IMG/VR virus record: IMGVR_UViG_3300025890_000082
Coordinates: 1-31,429 of that record
Length of the DNA stretch: 31,429 nt
Reading direction: 5' to 3' (one strand)
Source of the DNA: a virus
The notes under the pieces are model-generated. The model worked only from the letters and a program-made list of their open reading frames with translations, was not told the origin of the DNA and made no database searches. The position numbers and the translations under genes are program-made. Position 1 is the first letter of the stretch. Each line of letters begins with the position of its first letter. Positions 3,325 through 24,426 of this stretch are shown here, piece by piece.

Positions 3325-3565
3325 CGCCACACACCTCGATACGAATTCTCGTGAGTACAAGACCTGGATTCACCTTCGCCGCAAGCGTCGGGCCGATACC
3401 TGCGAACGATGGAAGTCATACAGCTCATTCCTGTACGACATGGGACGATGTCCGGACGGACTCGTCATTGGACGTCTTGACGCCACGAAGCTGTACGGGC
3501 CGGACAACGCAGCGTGGATGGATCGTCAGGACATGATGCGAAGGGCACGAGCAGCCAGAACTTGA
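3314..3565 (+). CDS. Small protein resembling the DNA-binding part of phage HNH/AP2-type proteins
   Basis: 83 residues. It starts Y-K-T-W with a basic stretch (HLRRKRRADTC), then W-K-S-Y, FLYDMGRCPDGLVIGRLD and LYGPDNAAW. This spacing (W..SF..FL.DMG..P.G..I.R.D....Y.P.N..W) is the conserved frame of a large family of small phage and homing-endonuclease-associated proteins that carry AP2- or HNH-like modules. I see no HNH catalytic triad, so DNA binding without cleavage is more likely. It is the last gene before the 185-base hairpin-rich intergenic region, with its start inside the upstream gene. Confidence 0.6.
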   Translation: MHGNATHLDTNSREYKTWIHLRRKRRADTCERWKSYSSFLYDMGRCPDGLVIGRLDATKLYGPDNAAWMDRQDMMRRARAART

Positions 3566-3629
3566 CAATTCTCGATTAAAGGATCACCATCTTGCAGCGA
3601 GTTCTGTGAGAGGGACTTCTGGATCAGAC

Positions 3630-3677
3630 AGAGCCAGCCGGGACTACTTGGCTGGCTCTTGTCGTGCGCCACGACAA
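3630..3677 (+). terminator. Tandem hairpins ending the first gene block
   Basis: AGAGCCAGCC (3630-3639) and GGCTGGCTCT (3650-3659) form a perfect 10-bp stem with a 10-base loop. Directly abutting it, TTGTCGTG (3659-3666) and CACGACAA (3670-3677) form an 8-bp stem with a 3-base loop. The U tract after either is short, so termination may be partial or Rho-dependent. The position, 65 bases after the last gene of the small-gene block and before the membrane-protein genes, fits a transcription boundary. Confidence 0.6.
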
Positions 3678-3702
3678 CTTGCTCTAATGCGTCAAGAAGG
3701 AG

Positions 3703-3739
3703 CTATTCGGGACAGGAATAGTTGAACTATTCCTGACAG
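3703..3739. promoter_or_regulatory. 23-bp perfect palindrome within a 24-bp-spaced direct repeat
   Basis: CAGGAATAGTT (3713-3723), a single G (3724) and AACTATTCCTG (3725-3735) form a perfect 11-bp dyad. In addition CTATTCGGGACAG (3703-3715) recurs as CTATTCCTGACAG (3727-3739), exactly 24 bases on. The dyad ends just before the probable ribosome site AGAGGA (3738-3743) of the membrane-protein gene at 3750. It could be an operator or an RNA hairpin that tunes translation of putative lysis genes. Confidence 0.5.
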
Positions 3740-3749
3740 AGGAAAATCC

Positions 3750-4067
3750 ATGCAATTCCTGTTCAAATTGACCTTGCTTTTTGGCCTGGTTTGCACAGGC
3801 TACTCTGGTTACCGTTTCGTTTACTTTTTTCGATCCACGCATCTGGCGGGCAAGGCAGTGATGTGGATGATCGGCGGAGAGTTCGTCGGGCTGACGATCT
3901 ACTGCATGTTTGCCACACTTGAGATAGTTGGAATTAATCCTGACCCTCTTGTGTCTACGGCTTTGCGTAACGTAGTCTTTGGCACGGCACTTGCCGCGTC
4001 TATCCACATGTCGGGTGCCATTCGGAAAATTGGAAATGATGATCACCATTCTCGCACAAATCGGTGA
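3750..4067 (+). CDS. Small membrane protein, candidate holin
   Basis: 105 residues with about three hydrophobic segments: 2-20 (FLFKLTLLFGLVCTGYSGY), about 36-60 (VMWMIGGEFVGLTIYCMFATLEIV) and about 70-87 (ALRNVVFGTALAASIHM), ending in a short charged tail. Size and topology match class I holins, but I recognise no specific holin family. A ribosome site (AGAGGA) lies 6 bases before the ATG. The gene overlaps the next one, which is also a membrane protein, by 32 bases. The strong palindrome just upstream suggests controlled expression. Another small phage inner-membrane protein is equally possible. Confidence 0.6.
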   Translation: MQFLFKLTLLFGLVCTGYSGYRFVYFFRSTHLAGKAVMWMIGGEFVGLTIYCMFATLEIVGINPDPLVSTALRNVVFGTALAASIHMSGAIRKIGNDDHHSRTNR

Positions 4068-4371
4068 GCTGACTCCGTGGGAAAAACACGGCTTGCCAGG
4101 ATTGGTGATATTCGCTCTATTCGGGCTGGTCTTTTGGGTGATGAAGAATCACAGAGGTGAGCGACGGCAGTGGACTGTTGACGCAAACGCACGCGAAGAC
4201 GTCCGGGTGAAGCAGAATGAGACGTACATAAAAGTTCAAGGAGAGTTCTCGGAAGCCGTCAGGGAACTGGCTAAAGGCCAGCAGGAGTCTCTGGCGATGC
4301 ACAGGCAACTCCATGAAGAGAACATTCGAGCCAAGGCTCTTCGAGATGCCAATTTGAAAGGCACGACATGA
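4036..4371 (+). CDS. Single-pass membrane protein with coiled-coil tail, candidate holin or inner spanin
   Basis: 111 residues. One transmembrane helix at about 20-36 (GLVIFALFGLVFWVM) is followed by a long charged helix (residues 40-105, rich in Glu, Gln, Arg and Lys). That is the layout of inner-membrane spanins and of some coiled-coil holin-type proteins. Start ATG 4036 (or the adjacent ATG 4039) lies inside the previous gene; an in-frame start at 3979 would add 19 residues with no ribosome site. The ATGA overlap with the next gene keeps it in the virion operon. The lysis role is inferred only from topology and context. Confidence 0.6.
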   Translation: MMITILAQIGELTPWEKHGLPGLVIFALFGLVFWVMKNHRGERRQWTVDANAREDVRVKQNETYIKVQGEFSEAVRELAKGQQESLAMHRQLHEENIRAKALRDANLKGTT

Positions 4372-4700
4372 TTAAAGCAGGCCAAATCTGGACCACCGCA
4401 GAGGCAGCGGATGACACTTCAACGGTGATCACCCTTACGCCTCCGTCCAACAAGCGAGTCGCTCTTCACTACCTGCTGTTCGCTTACGACAAAACTCTGA
4501 CCACGACGCCAGGTCGACTTACCATTACCATCGGCGGGGTGGAAGTCTTCAGTGCGCCGGTAATTGAAGCTGGTCCTGGCCCGATCCCCTTGCCGGATAT
4601 GATCGGAGAAGTCAACGGCGAAGCCATGGTCATTACCTTGACGACCGGCGGAACCACCGTGCAGGGATCGCTGAATTCGATGCACACTCTGGAGGATTAA
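4368..4700 (+). CDS. Small beta-rich protein, possible capsid decoration or fibre protein
   Basis: 110 residues, almost entirely predicted beta strands, with alternating Thr/Val stretches (TSTVITLTPPSNKRVAL, then PGRLTITIGGVEVF, then GEAMVITLTTGGTTVQG). Similar small beta-sandwich proteins are common among phage structural genes, between head or tail genes. There are no catalytic motifs. Its start overlaps the membrane-protein stop (ATGA), and the glycosyltransferase starts 2 bases after its stop. A virion surface role, perhaps as the substrate of the following modification enzymes, is a guess from location. Confidence 0.55.
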   Translation: MIKAGQIWTTAEAADDTSTVITLTPPSNKRVALHYLLFAYDKTLTTTPGRLTITIGGVEVFSAPVIEAGPGPIPLPDMIGEVNGEAMVITLTTGGTTVQGSLNSMHTLED

Positions 4701-4702
4701 GG

Positions 4703-5605
4703 ATGTCGACAGGAATGGGACTGGTTGGATACCAGGGCAACTCGGGCAAGAGCGGATCGTCTGGCGTCATTTGCCAGAAGGAAGCCATGCCTCACGACAC
4801 GTCTCTGGTCACCATTGTCGAAGAGAAGGTCCGCAAGAAGCGAGACTTGAATGTCGTGTGCCCGTTGGCCAACAAAGGCTACAGCTTTGGCATTTGGAAG
4901 AAGGCTTTCAAGAAGCTACCGTTGAACCGAGCACACGTACTGATCTACGACAATGGCAACGACAAGAGATTCTCTCAACGGATTAGAAGAGTCTGCGACA
5001 ATCTCGATAGTTACACGCTGGTCCGTGATACGAATCCTCATTTGACAGCAGACGACTCTTTCGACTTTGACGCCATTGGGGCCAGGTGCCGATCCATCTA
5101 CGGCGAAATCTACAACAAGTTGATTGACCCTCGACGACCATTGTCGGTCAATCTTGAAGATGATGTGGATTTCAAAAACGGTTCTTTCGAACGGCTGGAG
5201 AGGATCATCAATGAGGATGACGACATCGCCACAGTCATTGGTCAGTGCAACTGTCGTCGGGCCATTCAAGTTGCGAACACTCTGCAAAGCATTGCTGTGG
5301 ACTTCAAGGTAAGTCAGATGCTTGGAAGAGCAGCTCAGACTTCGGACCTGGATATCGAGATGCAGTTGCTGCCGTCGAAGACGTTTGGGGTCGACATGAT
5401 CGGCGCTGGACACATGGGGCTGTGGCTGACTCGTACAGACGCCATTGCCGCAACTGGCGGCATGGGTCAGAAGTTCGGAACTCTTCGCGGCAACGACTTG
5501 AACTGGGGCTTTGGCGTCAATGCTGCAGGCTTGAAATTCGCGATCGACTGGCAGGTCAAGCTTGACCACTTCTATCAGAAGGAAGGTCAACTACTGTCAT
5601 GCTGA
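4703..5605 (+). CDS. Glycosyltransferase (GT-A-like) with a collagen-like N-terminus
   Basis: 300 residues. A Rossmann-like start (NVVCPLANKGYSFGIWKKAF, about 50-69) is followed by VLIYDNGND (79-87) and an acidic metal-site candidate NLEDDVDF (150-157). This fits nucleotide-sugar transferases of the GT2/GT-A type. The sugar, acceptor and linkage cannot be told. Residues 6-21 form five consecutive Gly-X-Y triplets, unusual on a transferase and more typical of phage fibres. A strong ribosome site (GGAGG, 4690-4694) precedes the start. It overlaps the sulfotransferase gene by 7 bases, so the two products are probably made together and act in sequence on one glycan. Confidence 0.65.
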   Translation: MSTGMGLVGYQGNSGKSGSSGVICQKEAMPHDTSLVTIVEEKVRKKRDLNVVCPLANKGYSFGIWKKAFKKLPLNRAHVLIYDNGNDKRFSQRIRRVCDNLDSYTLVRDTNPHLTADDSFDFDAIGARCRSIYGEIYNKLIDPRRPLSVNLEDDVDFKNGSFERLERIINEDDDIATVIGQCNCRRAIQVANTLQSIAVDFKVSQMLGRAAQTSDLDIEMQLLPSKTFGVDMIGAGHMGLWLTRTDAIAATGGMGQKFGTLRGNDLNWGFGVNAAGLKFAIDWQVKLDHFYQKEGQLLSC

Positions 5606-6192
5606 CGCTGAGGTGCTGCCGTGTTCTTCGAACACCGAAGACAGGAAGCAAGTGGCTCACTGCAGCACTTGAGGCTTCCTGCAAGTATTTTCACAACGTA
5701 GGTAACGGGGCAGGTCAAGGGCCGAATGGCTATCACGCCACGTTGCGAAACGTTGGCAGTAGCCCCCTTAAGACTGTTGCCTTTGTCCGACATCCTTTTA
5801 CCTGGTACGGCTCTTACTGGAATCACCGAGTACGACTCGGATGGAAACCTGAAGAGCATCCTTTTGACGCAACATGTGCTGATCCGGTCTTCTCTGAATT
5901 CATGAAGAAGGCGATAGATCATTTCCCCGGCTACTGCTCCCGCAGCCAGGCAATGTGGGTCGGGGAAGCGGAAAGCGGAAAACCGATCGACTTCGTTGGT
6001 CGGTTTGAACATCTTCATCGCGACACGACTCAGTTCCTGGAATTGTTCCGCGAGCCGTATGACTCGCAACTGTTGCTGGCCACAGCTCCACGAAATGGCA
6101 GCGACTATCAAAAACATCCAGCAGAGCTGAGTCCTTCCATGAAGGAAAGGATTGAGCAGACCGACTGCGGAATCATCAATCGATTTTACTGA
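5599..6192 (+). CDS. Sulfotransferase family protein
   Basis: 197 residues. The N-terminal RTPKTGSKWL (11-20) matches the PAPS 5'-phosphosulfate-binding loop (P-K-T-G-S/T-x-W-L) of sulfotransferases. VRHPFTWYGSYW (63-74) matches the 3'-phosphate-binding strand-helix with its conserved Arg and Ser. The C-terminus (LSPSMKERIEQTDCGIINRFY) resembles the usual family end. The predicted reaction transfers sulfate from PAPS to a hydroxyl, most likely on a sugar given the adjacent glycosyltransferase. At under 200 residues it is short but seems to contain both cofactor motifs. An 18-base gap separates it from the large terminase gene. The acceptor is unknown. Confidence 0.8.
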   Translation: MLTLRCCRVLRTPKTGSKWLTAALEASCKYFHNVGNGAGQGPNGYHATLRNVGSSPLKTVAFVRHPFTWYGSYWNHRVRLGWKPEEHPFDATCADPVFSEFMKKAIDHFPGYCSRSQAMWVGEAESGKPIDFVGRFEHLHRDTTQFLELFREPYDSQLLLATAPRNGSDYQKHPAELSPSMKERIEQTDCGIINRFY

Positions 6193-6210
6193 TCACACAG
6201 GTAACATCTA

Positions 6211-7785
6211 ATGATTGCGTCAATGCAGCAGGACTTGACTCCGCCCGAAACAAAGTGGGCGAGATTCGACGGTCAGCTCCGGCCCTATGTCCGCGATGCG
6301 GAAGGGAAGATTCAACTCCTGACCTGGGCAGCCATGCCAGGATCACAGGAAGGATTCCTCAAGTGCAGCGTACAGGAAGTCTGTTACGCCGGTACTCGTG
6401 GCCCAGGGAAGACAGACGCTTTGCTGATGAGCTTTGCTCAGCACATCGGCAAGTGGGGCAAAGACTGGCGAGGCATCATCTTCAGAAGGACGTTCCCTGA
6501 ACTTGAAGACATCATTGCGAAGTCAGACAAGTGGTTCACGGAAATCTTTCCTGACGCGGTCTACAACAAGGGCAAGCATTACTGGGAATGGCCAGGTGGA
6601 GAACGTCTCTACTTCGGTCACATGCGAGTCCCGAGCGACTACACGAAGTACCACGGTCACAACTACCCATTCATCGGATGGGAAGAACTCACGACCTGGC
6701 CGAGCAAAGACTGCTTCGTCGTCATGCTGTCGACGAATCGAACGACCAATCCCAACGTCCCGAAGATGGTTAGGGCCACAACCAACCCGCATGGCGTCGG
6801 ACACAACTGGGTCAAGGCTCGATACAACTTGCCGGTCAAAGGAGACGGCAAGTTTGGAGAACTGTGCGGCGGCGACATCATGCTCGACGAGAAGGGCAAG
6901 CCTATCCTTGACAACAAGGGTAAGGAGATGTTCCAGCCGGAACGTATTGCCATTCACGGCGATATCGACGAGAACTTCTTATTGCTGGACGCTGACCCAG
7001 GCTATAAGGCCACGATTGCCGCATCGGCAAGTTCACCCAGTCAGTTGAAGGCTTGGTTGCATGGATCATGGGACGTTGTCGCCGGAGGAATGTTTGACGA
7101 TCTCTGGGATTCGACAGTCCATATTGTCGAGCCCTTCAAGATTCCTAAGTCGTGGCGATTTGATCGCTCTTTCGACTGGGGAAGCTCCAAGCCAGCATCC
7201 GTTGGATTCTGGGTTGAGTCGGATGGCTCTGATTACATCAATGCCGCCGGGTTCCGAGTATCAACCGTACGTGGCGATCTCTTCCGCGTACATGAGTGGT
7301 ACATGTGCAAGCAGGGCGAAGAGAACAAGGGACTGATGCTGACTGACCGGGAGATTGCGAACGGCGTCAAAGAGAAGGAGATGCAGCATCCTCTGCTGAT
7401 GAGTCAGAAGGTCAATCCAGGACCGGCGGACACCTCGATCTGGGACACGACGAACGGCAGCTCGATCTACAAATCCATGGCAGGCATGGGAGTTCGCTGG
7501 ACGAAAGCCGACAAGTCAGCAGGCTCCCGCATCCTTGGCTGGCAGCGAATCCGCAACCGACTGCAGGCGTCCTTCAAAAAGGAAGGACTTCCACGCGAGC
7601 ACCCTGGGCTGTATGTTTTCGACACTTGCGATGACTTTATACGCACAGTTCCTGTGTTGCCGCGAGATGATAAGAATACCGATGATGTGGATACGGAAGC
7701 TGAAGATCACATCGCGGATGAGACACGGTACAAGATTTATTCTCGCTCCGGCAAAATGACGAAAAAGAAGATTAGAGGTCGATGA
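6211..7785 (+). CDS. terL: Terminase large subunit
   Basis: 524 residues, typical for TerL. ATPase: Walker A GTRGPGKT (61-68), Walker B YPFIGWEE (152-159) and the coupling motif RATTNP (188-193). Nuclease: the first acidic residue of the RNase H-like fold is in FDRSFDWGSS (about D322). The protein cuts concatemeric phage DNA and drives it through the portal into the empty head. The start is ATG 6211, or ATG 6223 four codons on; CACACAGG lies just upstream. It overlaps the portal gene by 4 bases. The likely small subunit is not upstream as usual but after the portal (9286). One copy of TAGGGCCA lies at 6771-6778. Confidence 0.95.
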   Translation: MIASMQQDLTPPETKWARFDGQLRPYVRDAEGKIQLLTWAAMPGSQEGFLKCSVQEVCYAGTRGPGKTDALLMSFAQHIGKWGKDWRGIIFRRTFPELEDIIAKSDKWFTEIFPDAVYNKGKHYWEWPGGERLYFGHMRVPSDYTKYHGHNYPFIGWEELTTWPSKDCFVVMLSTNRTTNPNVPKMVRATTNPHGVGHNWVKARYNLPVKGDGKFGELCGGDIMLDEKGKPILDNKGKEMFQPERIAIHGDIDENFLLLDADPGYKATIAASASSPSQLKAWLHGSWDVVAGGMFDDLWDSTVHIVEPFKIPKSWRFDRSFDWGSSKPASVGFWVESDGSDYINAAGFRVSTVRGDLFRVHEWYMCKQGEENKGLMLTDREIANGVKEKEMQHPLLMSQKVNPGPADTSIWDTTNGSSIYKSMAGMGVRWTKADKSAGSRILGWQRIRNRLQASFKKEGLPREHPGLYVFDTCDDFIRTVPVLPRDDKNTDDVDTEAEDHIADETRYKIYSRSGKMTKKKIRGR

Positions 7786-9335
7786 TGGCTGACGAAGATC
7801 GCCCAAAAGTTGAGACAACTCATCCGAACTATGGTCCGATTGCCGGGATCTGGAAGAAGGTGCGTGACGTCATCGAGGGAGAGCCTGCCGTTCTGCATCC
7901 GGAGAACGTCCAGACTTATCTGCCGCCCCCGCCAGGCATGCAGCCAGGACCGGAGCAGTCGATCAATGACAAGCTGACGAATCGACTGCAGTCTCGCTAC
8001 GAGTTCTACAAGACCTTTGCGGACTTCCCTGAGATCACGGCTCCGATGATTCAGGGCATCATGGGCCTGGTCCATGAGAAGCCGCCGGAATACAACCTGC
8101 CAGAGAAGCTGTCATACCTTGCTAAGAAGGCGACAGGCGACGGTGACTCGCTCGAAGAGCTGTGGCAGCTCCTGACCCAGGAACTGTTCTACACCGGACG
8201 CATGGGACTTCTCGCGGACGTGCAGGGCGGACTCGGCTTAGAAGGTGCCCAGATGCATCTTTGCCAGTACTCGGCAGAAGCCATTCGGAACTGGAGACTC
8301 TCTCAGAAATGCGAAGGAGAGCAGGCGCAGATGGTTGTGCTCGGCGAGCATGGCATGGCACCTGATCCGAAGGATGACTTCAAGCACATCGAGGTCATGA
8401 ATTATCGTGAGTGCCGACTACTCGGAGACGAGTATTGGGTTCGCGTCTGGACGAAAGTCGAAGACGGCAAGGTCGCTCCGGTAGTTACTGCAGAGACTGA
8501 TCCTCAAGGCTGGATGCGTCCCGAGTTGTTTGGAAGACCGTTCGAGAACATTCCTTTGACGGTCATCAATGCCACTGACATTGGATACGAGTATGGACCG
8601 GTCCCAGCCTGGCCGATGGCGAAGAGAGCACTCGCCATCTTCCGAAAAAGTGCGGATGCGAATCGCTCGCTGTACATCAAAGGCGACCCGCAGTGCTGGG
8701 TCACCGGAGTACAGCCGGACGACATTCCCGATGAGATCGGAGGAAGCTCCATCTGGGGATTGCCCGACTCCGAAGCCAAGGTTGGATACCTCGACATCGA
8801 CGGACAGGGAATACCTCTCCAGCTCAAAGCCATTGACTCAGAGTACAGTCGGTTTTACGGAGAAGCTGGACATCTACTTGAGAGCGCTTCGAAAGGAGCT
8901 GAGGCGGCTGAGGCTCTGAGGATTCGTCAAGGCATGAAGCAGGTCTCTGTGAAGGCTCTCGTCAAGAATGCCGGAGCAGGGATGCAGGAAGCGTTGCGGA
9001 TGGTCGGACGTCTGTCCGGCATGTCCGATAGCGAAGTGGAAGAGATTACTTTTGATCCGAATGTGAACTTCACTGAAGGCACGATGGGATATCAGGAACT
9101 GCTCTTCCTGATGCAGGCTAAAGACCTGGCGATTCGAAACGGAGTTCCACTGAGTAACGAAACGATTCATGCTCAGATGAGAAAACGACAGCTTACGCAT
9201 CTGACGTATCAGCAGGAACTCGAAGGCTCGACGTCGGACATCGATACTGCGTTTGGACTCATTGGTCGATTAGCGGAGGAAGAAGATGTCGGCAGCAACA
9301 ATTCAACGGGAACTGGCCAAACAGGCTCCGAGTAA
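7782..9335 (+). CDS. Portal protein (DUF4055 type)
   Basis: 517 residues. The opening HPNYGPIAGIWKKVRDVIEGE, the YEFYKTFADF segment and the GIMGLVHEKPPEY strand-turn follow the pattern of the DUF4055 family, which occupies the portal position in many siphoviruses. It would form the dodecameric ring at one capsid vertex that docks the terminase and later the neck. The C-terminal third has the long helices expected of a portal stem and crown (SKGAEAAEALRIRQGMKQVSVK). ATG 7782 overlaps the terL stop; the next ATG, at 7785, is better spaced from AGAGG and may be used. The last 50 bases overlap the next gene. Confidence 0.85.
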   Translation: MMADEDRPKVETTHPNYGPIAGIWKKVRDVIEGEPAVLHPENVQTYLPPPPGMQPGPEQSINDKLTNRLQSRYEFYKTFADFPEITAPMIQGIMGLVHEKPPEYNLPEKLSYLAKKATGDGDSLEELWQLLTQELFYTGRMGLLADVQGGLGLEGAQMHLCQYSAEAIRNWRLSQKCEGEQAQMVVLGEHGMAPDPKDDFKHIEVMNYRECRLLGDEYWVRVWTKVEDGKVAPVVTAETDPQGWMRPELFGRPFENIPLTVINATDIGYEYGPVPAWPMAKRALAIFRKSADANRSLYIKGDPQCWVTGVQPDDIPDEIGGSSIWGLPDSEAKVGYLDIDGQGIPLQLKAIDSEYSRFYGEAGHLLESASKGAEAAEALRIRQGMKQVSVKALVKNAGAGMQEALRMVGRLSGMSDSEVEEITFDPNVNFTEGTMGYQELLFLMQAKDLAIRNGVPLSNETIHAQMRKRQLTHLTYQQELEGSTSDIDTAFGLIGRLAEEEDVGSNNSTGTGQTGSE

Positions 9336-22282: not shown

Positions 22283-23067
22283 CCGAAAATGCCAGCCTCT
22301 TACGTCGACAGCAGTCTCTGACTCCTGGTCGCGAAGTTCAGCTTTTTACGCTCGACACTACGGCAATTGAAAAGCTGGATGGCAGCGGCTACGGAAGCAC
22401 GTACAACTTCTGCTCTTCGTTTCGCGAGGATTCCCGAAACGTCACATTCAATTCCACGATCTACACTCCGATCGCGATCGAGGCAACAGGCTTCGAGACC
22501 TTGGGCAAAGGAGTTCTGCCCTCACCTCGCCTGAAGATTGCCAATACCAATCTGGAAATGACCACTCTCATTCAAGAGCTTGGTGATCCAGTGGGCGCGA
22601 GAATGACTCGGTTCCTGACCTTCGACAGATACCTTGATGACGGCAGCGAGCCTGATCCTGAAGCGATGTTTCTGCCACAGATTTATCTGATTGATCGAAA
22701 GGTCAAAGAGACTCGGATGATGGTGGAGTTTGAACTGTCCGCCTCGATGGACCAGGCAGGCAGAATGCTTCCCAAGCGACAGATTCTAAGAGATGCCTGC
22801 ACACACATTTATCGTCGATGGAACGGCTCGTCATTTGACACCGGGGCTGCCACATGTCCTTGGATCGGAAATGGAATCGCAGATCCCGACACGACTGGAC
22901 CTTACTTCCTGAATGACGATACGGAGACCGACGACCCTTCTCTGGACAACTGCGGTAAGCGTCTGCGATCCTGTGAAGTACGCCATGCTCCGGAAGACGG
23001 AACCATCCGACTCGATCTTCCGACAAGAGCCTTTCCAGGAGTTGCCAGAATCAGAGCGCGGAGATGA
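22279..23067 (+). CDS. Minor tail protein, lambda gpL-like, with Fe-S cysteines
   Basis: 262 residues. The N-terminal two thirds are beta-rich, as in gpL. The C-terminal domain holds four cysteines (174, 193, 225, 232), and the last two have the 7-residue spacing seen in lambda gpL, which carries a 4Fe-4S cluster there. Context segments are RDACTHIYRRW, TCPW, DNCGKRLRSCEVR. A fifth Cys (45) is N-terminal. The position between M and K is that of lambda. It forms part of the tail-tip hub. The stop lies one base before the K-like start. Confidence 0.9.
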   Translation: MTENASLLRRQQSLTPGREVQLFTLDTTAIEKLDGSGYGSTYNFCSSFREDSRNVTFNSTIYTPIAIEATGFETLGKGVLPSPRLKIANTNLEMTTLIQELGDPVGARMTRFLTFDRYLDDGSEPDPEAMFLPQIYLIDRKVKETRMMVEFELSASMDQAGRMLPKRQILRDACTHIYRRWNGSSFDTGAATCPWIGNGIADPDTTGPYFLNDDTETDDPSLDNCGKRLRSCEVRHAPEDGTIRLDLPTRAFPGVARIRARR

Positions 23068-23068
23068 G

Positions 23069-23821
23069 ATGTTCGACACACAGGTCACTGCAGCAGCCAA
23101 GCAGCATGCATTAAGAGAATACCCGAACGAGTCAGTAGGAGCCGTTTACGAAGGGACGTATCGCCCGCTGCAGAACGTGGCTCCGGAGCCAGAGAGTTCC
23201 TTTCGGCTGGAGAGTTATCCTGCTGAAGCTGAAGCAATCATTCACAGCCACACTCAGACGTCCTCTCGTGCTCCCAGTTTCGAGGATATGTCGAGCCAGC
23301 AGATAGACGACTCCCGTCGCCCTTGGGGCATCCTGAGCTGCAACGGCAAGGTCTGCACGGACATCGAGTGGTTCGGAGACGCTGCGACCGTGGAGCCTTA
23401 CGTCGGCAGGACTTTTCTAAGTGGCCAGAGAGACTGCTGGTGCCTCGTGCGAGACATCTACAGAAAAGAGTTGGGCATCAACACCTTGCCGAATCTCCCC
23501 CGAGGCGAGAACTGGTTTCGAGGAAGAAATCCTCAAGACCTGCTGTCCCGAATCAACATTGAAAATGCAGGGTTTTTCCGAGTCTCGATGAAGGAGCTGC
23601 GTCCATGGGACATTGTGCTCGGCTCGATCGGCTCGAAGGTGACCAACCATTGCGGAATCTATATTGGAGATAACCAGATTCTCCATCACACAGAAGACCG
23701 ATTATCCGCTAGAGTTCTCCTGAATCCCTGGGTCAAGCGACTCCGATATTACTTGCGACACGAAGCATTGAAGGATGAGTCTGTAGAAGACCTTCCTGAT
23801 CCGAAGGACGTCTTGAGATGA
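23069..23821 (+). CDS. Tail tip protein, lambda gpK-like: intact JAMM plus NlpC/P60
   Basis: 250 residues. The JAMM domain (about 5-100) has an intact zinc motif: IIHSHTQTSSRAPSFED gives His59, His61, Ser70 and Asp73. The NlpC/P60 domain (about 115-235) has Cys123 (in RDCWCLVRD) and His194 (in VTNHCGIYIG). In lambda-like phages gpK helps assemble the tip and may open peptidoglycan during entry. ATG 23069 follows the gpL stop, with GGAG 5 bases upstream; longer open frame to the left is a shadow of gpL. It sits in the canonical L-K-I position, so this is the orthologous copy and the one at 1899 is the extra. Confidence 0.92.
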   Translation: MFDTQVTAAAKQHALREYPNESVGAVYEGTYRPLQNVAPEPESSFRLESYPAEAEAIIHSHTQTSSRAPSFEDMSSQQIDDSRRPWGILSCNGKVCTDIEWFGDAATVEPYVGRTFLSGQRDCWCLVRDIYRKELGINTLPNLPRGENWFRGRNPQDLLSRINIENAGFFRVSMKELRPWDIVLGSIGSKVTNHCGIYIGDNQILHHTEDRLSARVLLNPWVKRLRYYLRHEALKDESVEDLPDPKDVLR

Positions 23822-24426
23822 AAACTATTTTTCTGTACGGAGCTTTGGCGGAGCAATTCGAACCAAGATACACCTTGGATGTCGAAACACCTGCTGAAGC
23901 AATTCGTCTGCTGGAAGCCAACTACCCTGGAAAGTTCGCCAACGCGATGCGAAACCAGTGGTGGAGAATCTCCCGGCGGGCGGAAGGTCCGTGCATGGTG
24001 GAGTGTGAGCTTCACATGCCGACATCGGCAAAAGAGTTTCACTTTGAGCCGTACACTCAAGGCGGATTCAAAGCGCTCTTCGGACTGTTCCTTGGAGGCA
24101 GTGGACTTGGTTCTATTTTTACCCCTTTGGGGCTACCTGCTTTGGGTGGGGGTGGGGCTGGCATTCTTGGATTCGGCGGAGCACTTGGAGGCTTTGGTAA
24201 AATTGCCATTGGCCTGGCTCTGCTTGGAGTCTTTGCTCTTATCTCTGGAGCACTTTCTCCAAAGGAAGAAGAGAAGGCAGAGGAAGATGAGCAATCATCC
24301 TTTCTCTTCAATGGTCCCGTAAATCAAACGTCACAAGGTGGACCTGTTCCGGTGGTTTATGGGCAGGTCATTGTCGGCTCGACCGTCATCAGTGGCGGCA
24401 TCAAAGTGGAAGACATTCAAGCATGA
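23818..24426 (+). CDS. Tail assembly protein, lambda gpI-like
   Basis: 202 residues. The N-terminal ubiquitin-like beta-grasp part (MKTIFLYGALAEQFEPRY, then TPAEAIRLLEANYPG) is followed by a Gly-rich hydrophobic centre (about 80-145). A C-terminal strand pair (FLFNGPVNQTSQGGPVPVVY, then GQVIVGSTVISGGI) completes the gpI pattern. gpI assists J/tip assembly. Both ends overlap neighbours by 4 bases. Confidence 0.92.
   Translation: MKTIFLYGALAEQFEPRYTLDVETPAEAIRLLEANYPGKFANAMRNQWWRISRRAEGPCMVECELHMPTSAKEFHFEPYTQGGFKALFGLFLGGSGLGSIFTPLGLPALGGGGAGILGFGGALGGFGKIAIGLALLGVFALISGALSPKEEEKAEEDEQSSFLFNGPVNQTSQGGPVPVVYGQVIVGSTVISGGIKVEDIQA

Follow-up and report, generated by a model that had tools for sequence, protein, structure and literature searches.

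Why would a phage carry a glycosyltransferase and a sulfotransferase gene back to back among the genes that build its virion, and on what would the two enzymes act? Such a pair is found in the window analyzed here, a 31.4-kb IMG/VR record (IMGVR_UViG_3300025890_000082, 31,429 nt) with a siphophage-type late region. A sequence-only reading had proposed that a GT-A-like transferase and a protein with two PAPS-binding motifs build a sulfated glycan on virion proteins or remodel the host surface. We recovered both ORFs and their motifs at the positions it gave, as well as the 7-base overlap between them and their placement between a small beta-type ORF and terL. The features of the locus are as follows:

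4368..4700, + strand: small beta-type ORF (110 aa), the first gene of the cassette, separated from the next by a 2 nt gap
4703..5605, + strand: predicted GT-A glycosyltransferase (GT; 300 aa), with NLEDDVDF and the EDD metal motif at residues 152-154
4727..4771, + strand: collagen-like Gly-X-X tag GYQGNSGKSGSSGVI, GT codons 9-23
5599..5605, + strand: GT/ST overlap ATGCTGA, 7 nt, conserved in six cassettes
5599..6192, + strand: predicted PAPS-dependent sulfotransferase (ST; 197 aa), with K14, R64 and S72 and a link to Sulfotransfer_2 via relatives
6211..7785, + strand: terL, the downstream neighbor (PHROG terL, E 1.8e-26), starting 18 nt past ST

The identities of TerL and the portal were confirmed with Pfam and PHROG, and the window TerL is approximately 50-52% identical to the TerL proteins of Pseudomonas phages, at about 52% to those of Ab18 and Ab20 and 51% to those of M6 and PAE1. 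If the phage resembles its TerL relatives of roughly 60 kb, the window represents about half of the expected genome. Neither promoter-like sites nor + strand terminator-like sites were found in 3500-8000, which is consistent with transcription of the region as one unit. The contig begins on its left with a 39-bp tandem repeat (1-187) of 4.8 copies with 98% match, which is possibly why the assembly stopped there. Upstream of the cassette lie a hydrophobic multi-helix ORF (3750-4067) and, overlapping it, an ORF with one hydrophobic segment and a charged helix (3979-4371); both are kept in the related contig L004, neither belongs to a family, and by eye both appear holin-like. The window also encodes two paralogous JAB/NlpC-P60 tail-type proteins that are 40% identical (1899-2681 and 22913-23821), of which one lies where tail genes are usually found and the other far upstream amid small ORFs.

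We assessed the identity of the first enzyme by structure prediction. The AlphaFold2 model of GT, built on a 14-sequence alignment, was strong (pLDDT 83.7, pTM 0.82), good throughout except for residues 1-33 (pLDDT under 50), and consisted of a compact globular GT-A domain, bearing out the GT-A-like transferase that had been proposed from the LEDDVDF motif. E152-D153-D154 constitutes a DXD-type metal motif and is invariant in 23 GT sequences, as are D83, N84, D265 and H289, among others. The model matched 265 structures in the PDB at E up to 0.001, with VIA Z scores of 15-19 to many GT-A enzymes. The nearest solved folds were the GT-A domains of COLGALT1 (Foldseek E 5e-8; VIA Z 19.0, rmsd 3.0, 227 aligned), LH3/PLOD3 (Foldseek E 1e-8) and mimivirus R699, which together span Foldseek E 1e-8 to 6e-8 and VIA Z 17-19, and Mnn9 was equally near (Z 19.0, rmsd 4.1, 228 aligned). 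Assignment of the window protein as a GT-A glycosyltransferase by its predicted fold is therefore well supported, and it is presumably catalytically active. Because Mnn9 is as close as COLGALT1, the substrate is not transferable from the fold, and we rejected the likeness to COLGALT1 as evidence of substrate.

The sequence of GT was far less familiar than its fold. It is only about 10% identical to COLGALT1, LH3 and R699 and has no sequence-profile match to them; a GT profile run against PDB chain sequences returned no COLGALT match. GT had no match of note in Pfam, PHROG or NCBIfam, and it did not match GT25/Glyco_transf_25 by sequence, with no Pfam match at E 1. No member of the family was detected in isolated phages by tblastn of 50,697 phage records, nor in GTDB contigs by two scans with short peptide patterns, which distant relatives could escape. 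GT thus appears to define a new GT-A family, missing from Pfam, PHROGs and NCBIfam at the sensitivity used. Its dN/dS was 0.25 relative to the L003 homolog, an approximate value given the high dS; three GT pairs that are closer to each other gave 0.10-0.14.

The evidence for the second enzyme comes from motifs and family relationships. Both PAPS motifs noted by the sequence-only reading were present, RTPKTGSKWL at residues 12-21 and VRHPFTWYGSYW at residues 63-74. K14, the 5′-phosphosulfate lysine of the PKTG loop, was found in 13 of 14 related ST sequences, the exception being the second ST of L115; in the R-x7-S motif of the 3′-phosphate site, R64 was present in 14/14 and S72 in 13/14. The PAPS lysine and R-x7-S are shared with the carbohydrate sulfotransferases of Pfam Sulfotransfer_2 (PF03567), from which the window ST differs in its score just under the cut-off of 22 (18.7 bits, E 0.002), its short length and its position as the second gene behind GT. 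Four homologs scored above the PF03567 cut-off (L002, 38.5; L094, 62.4; L096, 65.4; L075, 31.5 bits). A wide ST profile run against PDB sequences gave six matches, all to sulfotransferases and all weak (best E 0.015), and a narrow six-sequence profile (A11) gave no match to a solved sulfotransferase. Structure prediction, which had been suggested as a check, produced a low-confidence model for ST (pLDDT 60.8, pTM 0.54) with weak Foldseek matches, the best to Stf0 and SULT1A1 (E 0.2-0.4), and VIA Z scores of 4-5; Stf0, SULTs and NDST were among the matches, but guanylate kinases scored equally. A P-loop sulfotransferase fold is likely. Taken together, the conserved motifs and the family link support ST as a PAPS sulfotransferase, presumably an active one. 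ST dN/dS was 0.06 in L071/L072, and the window-L003 pair was saturated at synonymous sites. Relatives of ST in the cassette clade were found in viral contigs only.

To place the pair in a comparative context, we gathered relatives from IMG/VR by seeded scans, counting each contig once; these are uncultured contigs, many of them fragmentary. GT occurred in about two dozen contigs, which represent several types of phage, and in most of them it is surrounded by virion genes. Six of them (the window, L003, L071, L072, L073 and L093) have the order small ORF-GT-ST with the identical 7-nt overlap. The further GT contigs were L080-L083, L087-L090, L103, L109-L111, L113-L118 and L121; of these, L110 and L111 hardly differ from each other and L114 is truncated. 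With the window included and L114 left out, 24 GT contigs were tested. ST was the next gene after GT in ten contigs (the window, L003, L071, L072, L073, L093, L109, L115, L116 and L118), with an opposite-strand methyltransferase ORF between the two in L115 and a fusion of ST to Methyltransf_24 in L116. In L080, L110, L111 and L113 a SAM methyltransferase was next after GT, and in L082, L083 and L103 a head-morphogenesis-like ORF. Adjacency frequencies are biased upwards because the contigs came from scans seeded with these proteins. The pairing of GT with ST exceeds chance: gene order is conserved in L003, L071, L072, L073 and L093 at 36-50% protein identity. We observed by eye that the methyltransferase of L113 (2136-3053) runs on into a P-loop-like motif, GPSLDGKTSL, possibly part of a kinase domain.

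We then considered those of the genes surrounding GT that could be identified by family assignment or similarity. GT is located before terL in the window and L003, between portal and head morphogenesis genes in L073, L082, L083 and L103, behind SU10-type adaptor genes in L071 and L072, and, judging by position and sequence, between a TerL-like and a portal-like ORF in L089 and L090. A GT gene among virion genes is the arrangement looked for in phage virion glycosylation. This distribution also bears on the idea that GT and ST modify viral DNA or nucleotides ahead of packaging. The window cassette does abut terL, and GTs encoded by viruses are able to act on DNA (Pyle et al., 2024, as summarized in PMC12619734). 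However, adjacency to terL is not general, the neighbors elsewhere being portal, adaptor and fibre-like genes. Among 15 contigs, which are fragments, we found no thymidylate-synthase-type hydroxymethylase, and no TET/JBP match either, in a search whose control gave no signal anywhere. We consider DNA hypermodification very improbable.

Comparisons between individual phages indicated that the two enzymes travel together. The window and L003 are 84% identical in TerL and 79% in the beta-type protein, but only 48% in GT and 41% in ST. L003 and L073, in turn, are 68% identical in GT and 56% in ST, with beta-type proteins at 33%, and their grouping was supported at 100/100 in the GT tree and 96/95 in the ST tree. 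The beta proteins of L003 and L073 each cluster with those of their own phages, that of L073 with L080, L082 and L083; the L073 GT is just 47-49% identical to the GTs of these three, against 77% identity between the portals of L073 and L082. These identities and trees imply joint movement of GT and ST, with the beta gene remaining behind in its phage. In L004 the same slot is occupied by a two-domain GT2-type enzyme (Pfam Glycos_transf_2) without ST, weakly related to GT in its C-terminal half (E 5e-12). GT and ST thus appear to be an exchangeable module that has been co-transferred between phages. As the second enzyme is replaced or missing in relatives, the cassette would work as an exchangeable surface-coat module, a form of glycotype switching.

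What, then, would the cassette modify? We propose that the three genes (beta-type, GT and ST) form a late cassette that puts a sulfated glycan on an acceptor, most likely a virion protein, a proposal to which we give roughly even chances. GT would take a sugar from a host nucleotide-sugar and place it on the acceptor, the likeliest candidates being proteins of the virion during assembly, for instance the beta-type protein or its partner. ST would then add a sulfate, drawn from the PAPS of the host, to this glycan. Relatives would use a methyltransferase in place of ST, or an ST-methyltransferase fusion, or no second enzyme at all. Given the gene order, overlap and co-transfer, successive action of GT and ST on one glycan is the natural reading, in which the sulfate would go onto the sugar placed by GT, and the methyltransferases that stand in for ST elsewhere agree with a tailoring step. 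The cassette chemistry, a sugar followed by sulfate or methyl, is well supported. No APS kinase was found in the 15 contigs searched; the host would then have to supply PAPS, and the ST reaction would take place inside the cell. Of what had been proposed from sequence, the enzyme identities are borne out and joint action is backed by the comparison; we infer the virion target from gene position only.

The beta-type protein had also been suggested as the acceptor. An ORF matching its profile (A12) lies directly upstream of GT in 19 of the 24 GT contigs, and in L089 and L090 this place is taken by a different type of small ORF (A13), with both types present in L088 and L117; a small ORF of either type was directly upstream in 21/24 contigs, and none was recognized in L081, L118 and L121. 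The 4368-4700 protein matches no family in Pfam, PHROG or NCBIfam, neither A12 nor A13 had a convincing PDB sequence match, and kinship between the two was looked for and not shown. A scan seeded with the beta protein yielded L003 and L004 only. Its position and sequence pattern suggest a virion role and a beta fold. This near-constant adjacency makes the protein a candidate acceptor or docking partner. The GT-ST pair, however, is exchanged between phages independently of the beta gene, and the beta protein therefore need not be the acceptor.

Alternatively, the enzymes may alter host glycans (LPS, capsule or S-layer glycan) late in infection, blocking superinfection or preventing loss of progeny on debris. 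This is a common interpretation of marine phage GTs (PMC7029224), the host envelope is also a conceivable target for a GT from a late operon, and in L002 a related ST belongs, next to phage genes, to a larger carbohydrate cassette that also encodes GT9 and a methyltransferase-like ORF. Here, however, the cassette lies amid virion genes and is tied to a small ORF, and the GT model is a compact globular GT-A domain. The gtr seroconversion cassettes combine a gtrA flippase and a gtrB bactoprenol glucosyltransferase with a specific GT; by contrast, Pfam detected no flippase or undecaprenyl-GT family among the window proteins scanned around the pair. Remodeling of the host surface is in our judgment a serious but clearly less probable alternative to modification of the virion.

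A further candidate acceptor was suggested by the N-terminus of GT itself, which in the window carries Gly-X-X triplets (GLVGYQGNSGKSGSSGVI), as do the N-termini of most GTs. The window tag has six consecutive G-X-X triplets from residue 6, a run unreached in 5,000 shuffles, and is disordered in the model (residues 1-33). At least three triplets in the first 40 residues were found in 17/24 GT ORFs (L004 included) compared to 18/1,160 other ORFs; in L093 the run was not significant in shuffles. The tag and the A12-type beta ORF co-occur (Fisher p 0.002, 22 GTs), the sequences being related and hence not independent. The tag probably serves to dock GT on its target, or else is a substrate of the modification. 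One could envision a phage counterpart of collagen glycosylation, with the tag or another virion G-X-X tract as acceptor and sulfate added afterwards. In accordance with this, the collagen-modifying enzymes COLGALT1 and LH3, along with mimivirus R699, are the top fold neighbors, the tag is strongly enriched on GTs and is present even on the two-domain GT2-type enzyme that L004 has in place of GT, and the tags contain Ser/Thr. Against it, Mnn9 scores equally and identity is approximately 10%, the LH3 match covers residues 294-536 of a multi-domain chain, and the only other window ORF with a tract of at least four triplets is 23818-24426. A free triple helix, moreover, needs more than four triplets to be stable. 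We therefore regard a collagen-like acceptor as improbable. The same low standing applies to its extension, in which GT would modify Gly-X-Ser tracts in its own tag or a docked virion partner and an exchangeable ST or methyltransferase would cap the glycan, giving a sulfated, switchable coat.

Glycosylation of the virion has a precedent in mycobacteriophages, which glycosylate capsid and tail-tube proteins with the implication of phage GTs (Freeman et al., 2023, Cell Host Microbe, as summarized in PMC12619734). Involvement of a phage GT is common to the mycobacteriophages and the system proposed here, and the present cassette differs in that its GT has no Pfam/PHROG match, is partnered by ST or a methyltransferase, bears a collagen-like tag and nearly always follows a small ORF. 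Phage-borne sulfotransferases have also been annotated, as auxiliary genes, in Stenotrophomonas phage DLP6 and in OM43 phages (PMC10580990, which calls their role in phages unclear); the OM43 example belongs to Sulfotransfer_3, unlike the window ST. Our literature search, which covered subscription journals and preprints poorly, turned up nothing on a phage GT-sulfotransferase pair located in virion genes. If modification of the virion is correct, the particles of some environmental phages bear sulfated or methylated glycans and can change them through exchange of a two-gene module between unrelated genomes, phage sulfotransferases, called functionally unclear in PMC10580990, gain a concrete role, and attention is drawn to a GT-A family missing from Pfam, PHROGs and NCBIfam.

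Several additional features of the related contigs were observed. The TerL genes of L004 (3172-5766), L073 (853-3369), L082 (3-1748) and L083 (3-1343) contain intein-like insertions, while the window TerL is continuous; L004 is a close relative of the window, yet has the insertion. Two adjacent ST-like ORFs are present in L115 (5350-6661), the second without the PAPS Lys and Ser, and the opposite-strand Methyltransf_24 ORF lies just before both. Finally, L003 (2186-2683) and L115 (1894-2409), two different phages, encode PAS-domain proteins that are 41% identical and have an N-terminal hydrophobic segment, in each case a short distance upstream of the beta-GT cassette; a sensor-type protein near virion genes was unexpected.
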